Part shown: piece after piece, positions 41,201 to 45,639 of the stretch
How the letters are laid out: every line of letters starts with the position of its first letter
Position numbering within the stretch: position 1 is the first letter of the stretch
DNA from: Thermoanaerobaculia bacterium
GTDB lineage: Bacteria > Acidobacteriota > Thermoanaerobaculia > Multivoradales > Multivoraceae
Length of the DNA: 64,000 nucleotides
Reading direction: 5' to 3'
Assembly: GCA_022823665.1 (NCBI GenBank)
Contig: JAJEHN010000009.1
Span: 186,001 to 250,000, forward strand
Notes under the pieces: generated by a model
Seen by the model: the letters and a program-made list of their open reading frames with translations, nothing else
Databases searched by the model: none
Told to the model about the DNA's origin: nothing
Translations under genes and position numbers: made by a program

Positions 41201-41806
41201 GAGCTGTTCGTGGTTCTGTGGCGCAGCCACTCGCGCCGGCAGATCGACGGCCATCGCTTCGGCCGGAAGGCGTGCCAGCTCCCCTAATCGCGGATCGGAA
41301 TCGCTGCCCACCGGGCAGAAGGCCTCGGGCTCGCGTCCGGGCAGACCGAAGCTCGAGGCCATCTCACCGCGACCGTCGGACCGGGCGCTGATCCGATATC
41401 GCACGCCGCCGGGCTCGCCGAACCAGCCGACCAGACGGCCACCCTCCACGGTCAGGACGACGCTGTCATGACCCGCGCCCGGAAGACCGCCCGACCACAT
41501 CAGGTCGCCGCCGCCCCGATCCGCGAAGACGCTGAGTTCCGCCTCCAGCACCAGGCCATTCGGCGTCGGCAGCTCCAGCCGGACCGGCTCCGTGCGAAGC
41601 AGCTCCATGTCGACCTGGACGGCGATTGGGGAAATCTCCGGGGCGAGGTCCTGGACGGAGACAGTTGCCGGCTGGGTCGCCTGCGGAGTCAGCGTCAGCA
41701 GGCGCTGACCCTGAAGCGGCGCGGCGAGCAAGAGGAGCGCCGCGGCGGCAAGAAGTTCGCCAATCCGACTTCCGCCGTACTCCAATCTGGACAGGACTGA
41801 CCGCAA
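38204..41806 (-). CDS. Secreted metzincin protease with FN3 repeats and two C-terminal repeat domains
   Basis: The 1200-residue exported protein has a signal peptide, a propeptide-like region and a reprolysin-like domain (about 200-420). It carries the zinc motif HEVGHGLGAHHD (about 344-355) and a Met-turn TIMSYTG (about 390). Four or five FN3 domains follow (about 445-905), several with RLTWRDNS. The C terminus has two copies of a domain of about 100 residues (about 920-1030 and 1090-1200): DERFEV or DDRFAV, then SGLFWFF or TGFFWYF, then VKVLDG or VKMLDG, then a DVEY-x-ITV strand. The same domain appears at the end of the Calx-beta protein at 58-64 kb. Confidence 0.88.
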   Translation of the reverse strand: MRSVLSRLEYGGSRIGELLAAAALLLLAAPLQGQRLLTLTPQATQPATVSVQDLAPEISPIAVQVDMELLRTEPVRLELPTPNGLVLEAELSVFADRGGGDLMWSGGLPGAGHDSVVLTVEGGRLVGWFGEPGGVRYRISARSDGRGEMASSFGLPGREPEAFCPVGSDSDPRLGELARLPAEAMAVDLPARVAAPQNHEQLDILVVYTRTAASNWADRGGARAAIRSAGDYLNMVLRNGNIGVSARIVHMAQLSGLDRVGRDGTGPYGASIITQLRWDGEALRLRREHGADLVHLFTGESPWVLGGACGQHYLLFRDETAEEFSEYAYGWTSSACSDDGPIFAHEVGHGLGAHHDPANGGSPQTAFRPYAFGHGNLDRIPNVGTIMSYTGQGEPYLSSVRVKPQGRVIGIANERENERALRESIHIGVRYGDSVDPLPEDGPAAPTNLSVRMTGDLSVRLLWQDNAPDADGYEVTYWQSGQSGDPPTRRFEERGSATLDLPVADPGTRYFFFVRAVRGENTYSARSSTVTLAVPGAEPAPPSGLAWRPVVEEDPVRAGTNSARVSWVDNSDDESLFEVQLLYRGVLQRRKWVSANSESTLLTSLFPDISYSVRVYAHGIAGTSASSLLALESPPMPGPRAVSGVTARATGDTSVRLTWRDNSSDELGFRVLALVSGWFGLFEADANREAIEIEGLARGGGYLFFVLPYNDAGVGERSFARLALGEAGPGPAAPTRLDWGADGGVARLTWRDNSRGETGFEVQLRPEYDRQDTTVVGGGRWTRVALVPAGATSFELPRSEAVDYRVFAYSDAGYSRASNTVRGMPAPSGDPPREEDGGLIVLPSGETSVELTWTGRWTRPARGTLVIEARNPASGWTEVGRSEATAGGTVIAGLEPETPYTFRLRSGAADHSPEASATTGAFQGACREGADYLCLRDERFEVRAHWSRPDVLEEFGAGTAVPVGISDESGLFWFFESENIELVVKVLDGREINGAYWVFFGALSDVEYWITVRDAMTGERRTYHNPPKDVCGQKDLLAFSDTAAATGPSPAAAAGAGRPGFDLLRMNVASLDPGGIELASDGTGHCEASDERLCLLDDRFAVEVDFIDPNVDADAPRAAGVIPSLTTGKTGFFWYFSPSNVELAVKMLDGRGVNGSFWFLYGGLSDVEYTITVTDTLADSVATYRNEAGSICGEIDIDAF

Positions 41807-41847
41807 GACGTCCTCCTCTGCGATCCGGGACTCAGTACACTGGATTC

Positions 41848-43608
41848 GTGCAGTACAGGTCTATCTCACCATGCAAGAAGCCCGCCGTCGATCTCCCTGG
41901 GCTTCGCGGGCCGACCGTCGTCCCCGTGCTGATCGCGGCAATCGCCCTGGCGCTTTCCGGTTGCCGCGGTGTCGACGCCCCGCCCCGGCCCGACATCGTC
42001 TTCATCATGGCGGACGACATGGGCTTCTCCGACCTGGGCAGCTACGGCGGCGAGATCGGAACTCCGCACCTGGATCGCCTGGCCGCCAACGGCCTGCGCT
42101 TCAGCCACTTCTACAATACGGCCCGCTGCTGCCCGACCCGCGCGTCCCTGCTGACCGGCCTCTACGCTCACCAGGCCGGCGTCGGCCACATGATGGGCGA
42201 CGACGGGCTGCCGGGATACCGCGGCGACCTCGCCGCCAACGCGGTGACGATCGCCGAGGCCCTGAAGGAGGCCGGCTACGGCACCTACATGTCGGGGAAG
42301 TGGCACGTCACTCGTCACGTGGGCCACTGGAGCGGCAACGACGAACTCACCTCGACTCACAACTGGCCGCGGCAACGCGGCTTCGACCGCTTCTACGGCA
42401 CGATCCACGGCGCCGGCAGCTTCTACGACCCGGTCTCCCTCACCGAAGACAACGAACCCGTCGAACTCACGCCGCCGGACGACCCCGAAGCCCCCATCTA
42501 CTACTACACGGACGCAATCTCCGGGCACGCGGCGCGCTTCGTGCGCGACCACGCGGAGAGCGAACGCAGCGACGATCCGCTCTTCCTCTACGTGGCCCAC
42601 ACCGCGCCCCACTGGCCGCTGCACGCGCTGCCGGAGGACATCGCCCGCTACCGGGGCCGCTACGCCGCCGGCTGGGACGCGATCCGCGCCGAACGGCGCC
42701 AGCGGCTGATCGAACTCGGGCTGATCGAAGCCGACTGGCCGATCGCCGAGCGCGACCCGCGCGTGCCCGCCTGGGCGGACGTTCCCGGCGAGGAACGGCC
42801 CTGGTTCGAGCGCGCGATGGAGGTCTATGCCGCCCAGGTGGACCGCATGGATCGGGGTATCGGCGAGGTCGTCGCGGCGCTGGAGGAGACCGGCCGTCTC
42901 GACAACACGCTGATCCTGTTCCTGGCCGACAACGGCGGTTGCGCCGAGGTTCTGACGGAACGGTGGACCGGCCTCGCGATCCCACGTCAGGCCCTCGACG
43001 GCAGCCCGGTGGCGGTCGGCAACGACACGGACGTGCTGCCAGGCCCCGAGTCGAGCTACCAGAGCTACGGCCCCCACTGGGCCCACGCCAGCAACACGCC
43101 GTTCCGCCTCTACAAGCACTGGGTCCACGAAGGGGGCATCGCGTCCCCGCTGATCGTCCACTGGCCGACGCGGATCGCCGACGGCGGCGGCATCGTGCGC
43201 GAAACCGCCCACGTCATCGATCTGATGGCGACCGCGCTCGACGCCGCCGGCGCCACGCACCCCGCAAGTCGCGCCGGCAGCGCCTCGATCCCGGTCGAGG
43301 GCGTGAGTCTGCTGCCGGCGTTCCAGGCTCAGCCTCTCCATCGAGACGCGGTGTTCTGGGAGCACGAAGGCAACCGGGCGGTCCGCTCCGGCAAGTGGAA
43401 GCTGGTGTCCCGGTACCCGGGCGAGTGGGAGCTCTACGACGTGCTCGCCGACCGCACGGAAGCCAACGATCTGGCGCTGGCGGAACCCGAGCGGGTCGCC
43501 GCGCTCGCCGTGCTCTGGAACGACTGGGCCGCCCGCACGGGAGTGGTCCCCTGGGACGAGATCAGGGAGCGCCGGCGGGCCGCCCGCGAGGCCGGCCAGG
43601 GGTCCTGA
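41848..43608 (+). CDS. Formylglycine-dependent sulfatase
   Basis: The 586-residue protein is a type I sulfatase: metal-binding IVFIMADDMGFSDLGSYGG, the formylglycine site CCPTRASLLTG (CxPxR) and GKWHVTRH. Also present are HTAPHWPLHALP and LFLADNGG with the late metal ligands. It begins with an exported signal carrying a possible lipobox (LALSGC). The GTG at 41848 is chosen because it gives a full signal peptide and lies 6 bases after a TACACT hexamer, suggesting a leaderless message. The sulfate ester substrate is unknown. A true FGE is not seen in this window. Confidence 0.9.
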   Translation: MQYRSISPCKKPAVDLPGLRGPTVVPVLIAAIALALSGCRGVDAPPRPDIVFIMADDMGFSDLGSYGGEIGTPHLDRLAANGLRFSHFYNTARCCPTRASLLTGLYAHQAGVGHMMGDDGLPGYRGDLAANAVTIAEALKEAGYGTYMSGKWHVTRHVGHWSGNDELTSTHNWPRQRGFDRFYGTIHGAGSFYDPVSLTEDNEPVELTPPDDPEAPIYYYTDAISGHAARFVRDHAESERSDDPLFLYVAHTAPHWPLHALPEDIARYRGRYAAGWDAIRAERRQRLIELGLIEADWPIAERDPRVPAWADVPGEERPWFERAMEVYAAQVDRMDRGIGEVVAALEETGRLDNTLILFLADNGGCAEVLTERWTGLAIPRQALDGSPVAVGNDTDVLPGPESSYQSYGPHWAHASNTPFRLYKHWVHEGGIASPLIVHWPTRIADGGGIVRETAHVIDLMATALDAAGATHPASRAGSASIPVEGVSLLPAFQAQPLHRDAVFWEHEGNRAVRSGKWKLVSRYPGEWELYDVLADRTEANDLALAEPERVAALAVLWNDWAARTGVVPWDEIRERRRAAREAGQGS

Positions 43609-43637: not shown

Positions 43638-44258
43638 ATGAAAACCAGAGCTTTCCTGGCTGGCGCGGCCCTGGTCTGCGCCTCTCCCGCACTTGCCGCC
43701 GAGGTGCCGACATCCGCGGAGGACGTTCGGCCGCTTCTGGTCGGCAGCGCCGTCCCCGAGGTCGAGCTTCCCGCCGCCGACGGCGGTGTCGTTGATCTGG
43801 CCGCCCAGGCCAGGGCACAGCCGACGATCCTCATCTTCTACCGCGGCGGCTGGTGACCGTACTGCAACACGCAACTGGGTCAGTTGCAGGAGATAGAGCA
43901 GGATCTGATCAACCTCGGCTACCAGTTGTTCGCGGTCTCGCCGGACGTCGCGGACCAACTGCAGGCCACCGTCGACAAGAACGAACTGAAGTACCGGCTT
44001 CTCTCCGATCGGGGCATGGCGGCCTCGCAGGCGTTCGGCATCGCCTTCCGCGACGAGGAGATGGTGCGCACCTACCGGGAGAGCTACCAGCTCGACCTGG
44101 AGGCGTACGCCGGGGACGATCACCACATGCTGCCGGTGCCCGCGGTCTTCGTGCTCGACACGGACGGCCGGGTCGCCTTCCACTACGTGAACCCGGACTA
44201 CAAGGTCCGTCTCCCGGAGACGGTTCTGCTCGAGGCCGCGAAGGCGGCGCTCAAGTAG
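43638..44258 (+). CDS. Peroxiredoxin-like (AhpC/TSA family) selenoprotein, TGA read as Sec73
   Basis: Reading through one TGA at 43854-43856 gives a continuous 206-residue exported thioredoxin-fold protein. The signal peptide is MKTRAFLAGAALVCASPALA. The site reads FYRGGW-U-PYCNTQLGQL, where relatives have FYRGGWCPYC, so TGA replaces the first Cys of the CxxC motif (U73, C76). The second half, with FAVSPDVADQL and PVPAVFVLDTDGRVAFHYV, is intact and in frame to a TAG. A hairpin follows the TGA. The best explanation is selenocysteine; a fresh nonsense mutation or a sequencing error is the alternative. It would reduce peroxides or disulfides in the periplasm. Confidence 0.8.
43862..43889 (+). 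promoter_or_regulatory. Candidate bacterial SECIS hairpin
   Basis: Two alternative stems lie just 3' of the TGA at 43854-43856. One is GCAACT (43871-43876) with AGTTGC (43882-43887) around loop GGGTC, whose loop begins 20 bases after the TGA. The other is CTGCAAC (43862-43868) with GTTGCAG (43883-43889). A short hairpin with a G at the start of its loop at this distance is what bacterial SECIS elements require. Confidence 0.6.
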
Positions 44259-44292: not shown

Positions 44293-45639
44293 TTGGCGAC
44301 GGTAGTGGATTCCAACCGACAGGCGCTGGCGCGCAACGATCCCGCGGTGTGGGCCGCGATCGCCGGCGAGGAGGAGCGCGAGCGGCGCGGCATCGAGCTG
44401 ATCCCATCGGAGAATTACACCTACCCCGAGGTGTTCGCGGCGAACGGCTCGGTGCTGACGAACAAGTACGCGGAGGGCTATCCCGGCCGCAGGTACTACG
44501 GCGGCCAGGAGTTCACGGACGCGGTCGAGCGGCTGGCGATCGAGCGCGCCTGCCGGCTGTTCCGGGCCGAGCACGCGAACGTCCAGGCGCTGTCCGGCTC
44601 GCCGATGAACCAGGCCGTCTACTTCGCCTTCCTCGATCCCGGCGACACGGTGCTGGCGATGGATCTGTCACACGGCGGCCACCTCACCCATGGCGCGCCG
44701 GTGTCCCACATGGGCCGGGTCTTCAACTTCATCCGCTACCGGACGGACCCGGCCAACGAGGGCGCAATCGACTTCGACGCCATGCTCGCCCAGGCCCGCG
44801 AGCATCGGCCGAAGATGATCCTCTGCGGCTACTCGTCCTACCCGCGGGACTACGACTACCGCGAGTTCAAGCGGGTCGCGGACGACGTGGGGGCGCTGAC
44901 GATGGCCGACGTGTCCCACATCGGCGGCCTGATCGCGGGCAATGCGATGGCGAACCCGCTCGACCACGGCTTCGACGTGATGACGACGACCGGCCACAAG
45001 ACCCTCCGCGGTCCCCGGAGCGGGCTCATCCTGTCCCGCGCGGAGCACCGCCGGAAGATCGACAAGGCGGTGTTTCCGGGTCTCCAGGGCGGTCCCCACA
45101 TGAACGCGGTCGCGGCGCTCGCGATCACTCTGGGCAAGGCGCTCGAACCCGAGTTCGCCGTCTACGCCCGGCAGGTCCTTTCGAACGCGAAGGTGCTGGC
45201 GGACGAACTGATGAGCCGCGGCGCCGAACTGGTCACCGGCGGCACCGAGAACCACATGATGGTGCTGGACACGCAGGCGAGCTTCGGTATCGACGGCCGG
45301 ATCGCCGAAGAGACGCTGGACAAGGTCTCGATCACGGTCAACAAGCAGTTGATCCCGGACGATCCGCTGCCGCCGCTGCGACCCAGCGGCATCCGCCTCG
45401 GCAGCCCGGCGGCCACCACCCGCGGCATGGAAGAGGCGGAGATGAAGCTGCTCGCCGAGTGGATCATGGACGCGCTCCGGCGCCACCGGGACGAGGAGCG
45501 CCTCGACGCCATGCGCCAGGACATCGAACGGTTCTGCCTGCGCTTCCCCGTGCCCGGCGTGACCCCGTCAGACGCTGGCGCCGCCAGCCCCCGAAGATCA
45601 AGCGCCGCCAGACCCCGAACACCAGACGCAAGAGGCTGA
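44293..45639 (+). CDS. glyA: Serine hydroxymethyltransferase
   Basis: The 448-residue PLP enzyme interconverts serine and glycine with tetrahydrofolate. Features include ELIPSENYTYPEV, NKYAEGYPGRRYYGG, the Schiff-base Lys in TTGHKTLRGPRSG, and VFPGLQGGPH. The TTG at 44293 is the farthest reasonable start; GTG at 44305 is an alternative, and neither has a strong ribosome site. The C-terminal 25 residues are low-complexity and charged. It follows the selenoprotein by 34 bases. Confidence 0.93.
   Translation: MATVVDSNRQALARNDPAVWAAIAGEEERERRGIELIPSENYTYPEVFAANGSVLTNKYAEGYPGRRYYGGQEFTDAVERLAIERACRLFRAEHANVQALSGSPMNQAVYFAFLDPGDTVLAMDLSHGGHLTHGAPVSHMGRVFNFIRYRTDPANEGAIDFDAMLAQAREHRPKMILCGYSSYPRDYDYREFKRVADDVGALTMADVSHIGGLIAGNAMANPLDHGFDVMTTTGHKTLRGPRSGLILSRAEHRRKIDKAVFPGLQGGPHMNAVAALAITLGKALEPEFAVYARQVLSNAKVLADELMSRGAELVTGGTENHMMVLDTQASFGIDGRIAEETLDKVSITVNKQLIPDDPLPPLRPSGIRLGSPAATTRGMEEAEMKLLAEWIMDALRRHRDEERLDAMRQDIERFCLRFPVPGVTPSDAGAASPRRSSAARPRTPDARG

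Follow-up and report, generated by a model that had tools for sequence, protein, structure and literature searches.

Selenoproteins in which a UxxC redox motif lies within a peroxiredoxin-like (Prx-like) protein have been catalogued since 2005 (PMC1088965), and are also covered by later entries in the literature (PMC1794560, PMC9312934, PMC13188914). Members of the class described as Prx-like thiol:disulfide oxidoreductases (PF00578, with UxxC or UxxU) possess an AhpC/TSA domain, carry UxxC instead of TxxU or TxxC, are served by a bacterial SECIS element directly downstream of the selenocysteine (Sec) codon, and exist in both Sec and Cys forms. Its published exemplars were described in Deltaproteobacteria, such as Geobacter, and in marine metagenomes. 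UxxC selenoproteins assigned to PF08534 have been described separately under the name 'Redoxin family protein' (PMC13188914). Bacterial SECIS (bSECIS) elements are modelled as hairpins with a stem of 4–16 bp and a loop of 3–9 nt, bearing a G within the first two loop positions and lying 16–37 nt from the UGA codon; the published energy threshold is a minimum free energy (MFE) of −7.5 kcal/mol or below (PMC13188914).

The gene discussed here lies at positions 43638–44258 on the forward strand of a 64,000-nucleotide stretch of DNA from a Thermoanaerobaculia bacterium (Acidobacteriota), the whole of which we refer to as the window. In common with the Prx-like class, it encodes an AhpC/TSA domain (PF00578), has UxxC in place of TxxU or TxxC (here U73-P-Y-C76), is followed directly by a bacterial SECIS-type hairpin and has relatives of both Sec and Cys form; the W-U-P-Y-C clade that it represents is likened to the published exemplars, among them WP_010940744.1, by description only. 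With the 'Redoxin family protein' selenoproteins it shares PF08534 and UxxC, again a likeness by description, but it fits PF00578 better. Homology to the SelL-related redox proteins (NCBIfam NF040769) is weak (E 1.6e-11), and the 44.1 bits scored against that model place the protein outside it (cut-off 120).

A first-pass annotation of this DNA had called the gene a probable selenoprotein and UxxC redox selenoproteins an established class. Published catalogues confirm the latter statement (PMC1088965), and the former is upheld by the Sec machinery of the host, the conserved TGA codon, the occurrence of Cys or Sec at residue 73 and a covarying hairpin. We put at about 95% the probability that the gene encodes a Sec enzyme, a 206-amino-acid, probably exported thiol:disulfide (or hydroperoxide-dependent) oxidoreductase produced by SelB-dependent decoding of UGA.

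An in-frame UGA codon and the Sec machinery

The reading frame opens with an ATG at 43638 and closes with a TAG at 44256–44258, and the sole in-frame stop between them is the TGA at 43854–43856. This TGA is codon 73 and the first position of UPYC; within a GGWCPYC motif (FYRGGW-TGA-PYC) it takes the place of the first Cys codon, while Cys76, the putative resolving Cys, is encoded by the TGC at 43863–43865. When read through, the product matches two Pfam families, AhpC-TSA (PF00578) at 94.2 bits (cut-off 26) and Redoxin (PF08534) at 68 bits. These matches span the TGA, in keeping with the earlier claim of family sequence on both sides of it, and no other stop interrupts the frame.

Comparison within the genus gives a dN/dS of 0.14 downstream of the TGA and 0.16 upstream of it, and the downstream frame is therefore coding. 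Synonymous divergence falls to 0.01–0.05 between about codons −6 and +21 relative to the TGA, a stretch that takes in the hairpin, compared with 0.06–0.37 elsewhere, and therefore the nucleotides of this region are constrained beyond the needs of the protein.

TGA is found at codon 73 in all 21 of the genus genomes searched, with 20 copies full or near full length and one cut at the N-terminus. Beyond the genus, it occupies this codon in further genera and families of the same order, in additional families spread over the Acidobacteriota, and in one Candidatus Eisenbacteria MAG (L046). In the closest Cys homologues, which belong to Bacteroidota, Verrucomicrobiota, Gammaproteobacteria, Planctomycetota and other groups, codon 73 is TGC or TGT and the motif is otherwise near-identical (FYRGGWCPYCNTQL). 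The TGA thus stands exactly where a catalytic Cys codon had been expected, and the alignment contains both Cys and Sec forms at residue 73. The contig scan for homologues used the pattern WCPYCNTQ and is skewed towards Cys forms, a bias from which the genome searches are free.

All four components of the Sec machinery (selA, selB, selC and selD), which the first-pass annotation had proposed as a check, are present in the host genome, which was covered by targeted searches and selected stretches. Profile matches exceed their cut-offs for SelA (445 bits), SelB (358 bits) and SelD (249 bits), and a tRNA-Sec scoring 73 bits is identified by ARAGORN as SeC (tca). SelB and/or tRNA-Sec are present in nearly all 72 genomes of the order. 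The active-site residue of the host SelD is Cys, not Sec, and the SelD frame (L018, G000:C29:189649-190572; 879 aa) has an upstream extension that looks NADH-dehydrogenase-like by eye.

A covarying hairpin downstream of the UGA codon

Comparative pairing and folding place a bacterial SECIS-type hairpin at 43871–43887, with stem strands at 43871–43876 and 43882–43887 and the apical loop GGGUC at 43877–43881 (GCAACU-GGGUC-AGUUGC; UGA-to-loop spacing 20 nt). Its geometry agrees with the bSECIS model, having a stem of 6–7 bp and a loop 20–21 nt from the UGA. At −7.4 kcal/mol, the MFE of the bare window hairpin is just short of the −7.5 threshold, which is reached by 12 of 23 Sec relatives, most of the others being at −7.3 or −7.4. 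Stability of the single sequence is unexceptional (z −0.55), as 724 of 5000 synonymous recodings are equally stable. It is the comparative evidence that makes the SECIS significant, the energy of one sequence alone being insufficient.

Over 20 distinct Sec sequences, the stem pairs in 98.3% of cells, against 89.5% in shuffles (0/500), and stem registers slid from this position pair in 7.5–54% of cells. Both sides have changed in four of the six stem pairs, for example from G-C to A-U in seven sequences. The full in-register 6-bp stem is present in 18/23 Sec sequences vs 1/55 Cys sequences. Three of the five remaining Sec forms, all distant (L115, L116, L117), have a hairpin in a shifted register, with a stem of approximately GAGC-TGGAT-GCTC, which is possibly an independently arisen SECIS. 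The hairpin with a G-rich loop that had been noticed close behind the TGA therefore withstands a bacterial SECIS check, since it fits the model geometry, covaries among Sec forms and is rare in Cys forms. An alternative stem of lowest energy, CUGCAAC/GUUGCAG, was rejected as it is without covariation support. An Rfam scan of the window gave no RNA family at gathering score, which is little informative for a hairpin this small.

These data bear on two accounts in which Sec plays no part. If a Cys codon had become TGA in a pseudogene, or through a sequencing or assembly error, the protein would be truncated, and the TGA does formally shorten it to 72 aa. A misread TGC at 43854–43856 is nevertheless excluded by the recurrence of the TGA throughout the genus, in independent assemblies, and in many families besides, and purifying selection persists beyond it; we assign this account a negligible probability. 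Readthrough of UGA by reassignment to Trp or Cys, or by near-cognate suppression, would accord with the Cys of the homologues and with the UGA-decoding tRNA of the genome. Nearby, however, UGA is an ordinary stop that ends the upstream sulfatase frame (41626–43608), and both the complete SelA/B/C/D set and a hairpin that covaries in UGA forms and is rare in Cys forms argue against such readthrough, which we judge very improbable. Under the preferred reading, Sec decoding, SelB and Sec-tRNA-Sec would bind the hairpin just 3′ of the UGA, and Sec would be inserted at residue 73 to yield the 206-aa protein.

Predicted fold, export and redox function

The fold class of the product is predicted from an AlphaFold model (pLDDT 89), whose closest folds are those of PrxQ/Bcp4, AhpE and AhpC (Z 20–23); ResA is also among its Foldseek matches. 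In an alignment with Aeropyrum Bcp, U73 corresponds to the Thr/Ser of the Prx motif and C76 to the peroxidatic Cys, with R69 at the motif Pro and P168 at the conserved Arg. Although the fold is held in common with PrxQ/Bcp, AhpE and AhpC, the protein thus departs from the classical PxxxT(S)xxC motif and catalytic Arg, and has UxxC rather than TxxC. P168 belongs to an LPVP segment (residues 165–168; 44130–44141) in which L165, P166 and P168 are nearly invariant among aligned homologues. It matches the 'VP' cis-Pro position of thioredoxin and TlpA, and it would likely have the geometry of a thioredoxin-like cis-Pro.

An N-terminal segment at 43638–43700 (MKTRAFLAGAALVCASPALA-A) was recognised by eye from the translation as a probable signal peptide, and the N-termini of homologues are likewise hydrophobic. 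Because of this segment the product is probably exported, and its placement would be periplasmic. We infer both its catalytic chemistry and its substrate class to be those of a thiol:disulfide (or hydroperoxide-dependent) oxidoreductase. Within a thioredoxin fold of peroxiredoxin type, the Sec73-Pro-Tyr-Cys76 pair would alternate between the selenenylsulfide and the reduced state, with Sec73 acting as the fast attacking nucleophile and Cys76 as the resolving residue.

The WUPYC pattern occurs at three sites in the host genome. One paralogue (L133, G000:C31:13537-14004, reverse strand) has a signal peptide, a redoxin domain with TGA at residue 115, a hairpin past the TGA (GCAGCT-GGTCG-AGCTGC) and, by Pfam, a C-terminal DsbD_N domain. 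The other, a candidate (L135, G000:C10:264129-264143, reverse strand), has a signal peptide, a redoxin domain, a TGA and a comparable hairpin; its C-terminus resembles DsbD_N by eye and was not scored in Pfam. Both proteins are probably exported.

A true selenoprotein could also function as a classical PrxQ-like peroxidase, as the nearest solved folds and the top NCBIfam match, a thiol peroxidase model scoring below its cut-off, might suggest. The replacement of Pro by R69, of Thr/Ser by U73 and of Arg by P168 speaks against this role, as does the fusion of one paralogue to DsbD_N, and we regard it as unlikely but worth keeping in mind. Thiol:disulfide exchange appears about twice as probable as a pure peroxidase role, because the genome has the two WUPYC paralogues with DsbD-N-like C-termini. 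We refine the original description as a 'peroxiredoxin-like enzyme': 'Prx-like thiol:disulfide oxidoreductase' is more accurate than 'peroxiredoxin', because U73 falls on the Prx Thr/Ser and Cys76 on the peroxidatic Cys.

Exchange of Sec and Cys within the family

The most interesting aspect of this gene family is the repeated switching between Cys and Sec. In a 75-protein tree (midpoint root) the two forms interleave, with 12 undirected changes by parsimony, of which well-supported branches require at least 6. We give even odds to a distinct, unmodelled subfamily of exported W-U-P-Y/F-C redoxins that is widespread among Acidobacteriota, includes some DsbD-N-like fusions and accounts for these switches. 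If real, it would point to a network of periplasmic electron relays that depends on Sec and comprises several paralogues per genome. The interleaved forms provide a natural set for testing the causes of Cys-to-Sec switches, and are equally useful for studying how a SECIS arises within a coding frame.

As no NCBIfam model scores above cut-off for this protein or for its two DsbD-N-linked paralogues, automated annotation would probably truncate the gene, as had been anticipated when it was said that normal annotation would split or truncate it. The gene adds a well-supported and probably exported selenoprotein, one that annotation would cut short, to an Acidobacteriota lineage whose Sec machinery is complete.

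Directly downstream of the redoxin gene starts glyA (serine hydroxymethyltransferase; 44293–45639). The order sulfatase-redoxin-glyA is kept in nearly all genus loci checked and is unseen beyond the genus, where no conserved neighbour points to a pathway. Because the neighbours are conserved within the genus only, we claim no operon-based function.

Two observations concern the 3′ end of the frame. A TAG in the homologue L130 was considered as a stop at the Sec site and rejected, as it lies near the C-terminus and codon 73 of L130 is TGC. In one genus member (L104, G046:C73) the TAG stop has been lost and the frame continues for approximately 420 codons past the usual end, possibly owing to a frameshift near the C-terminus.
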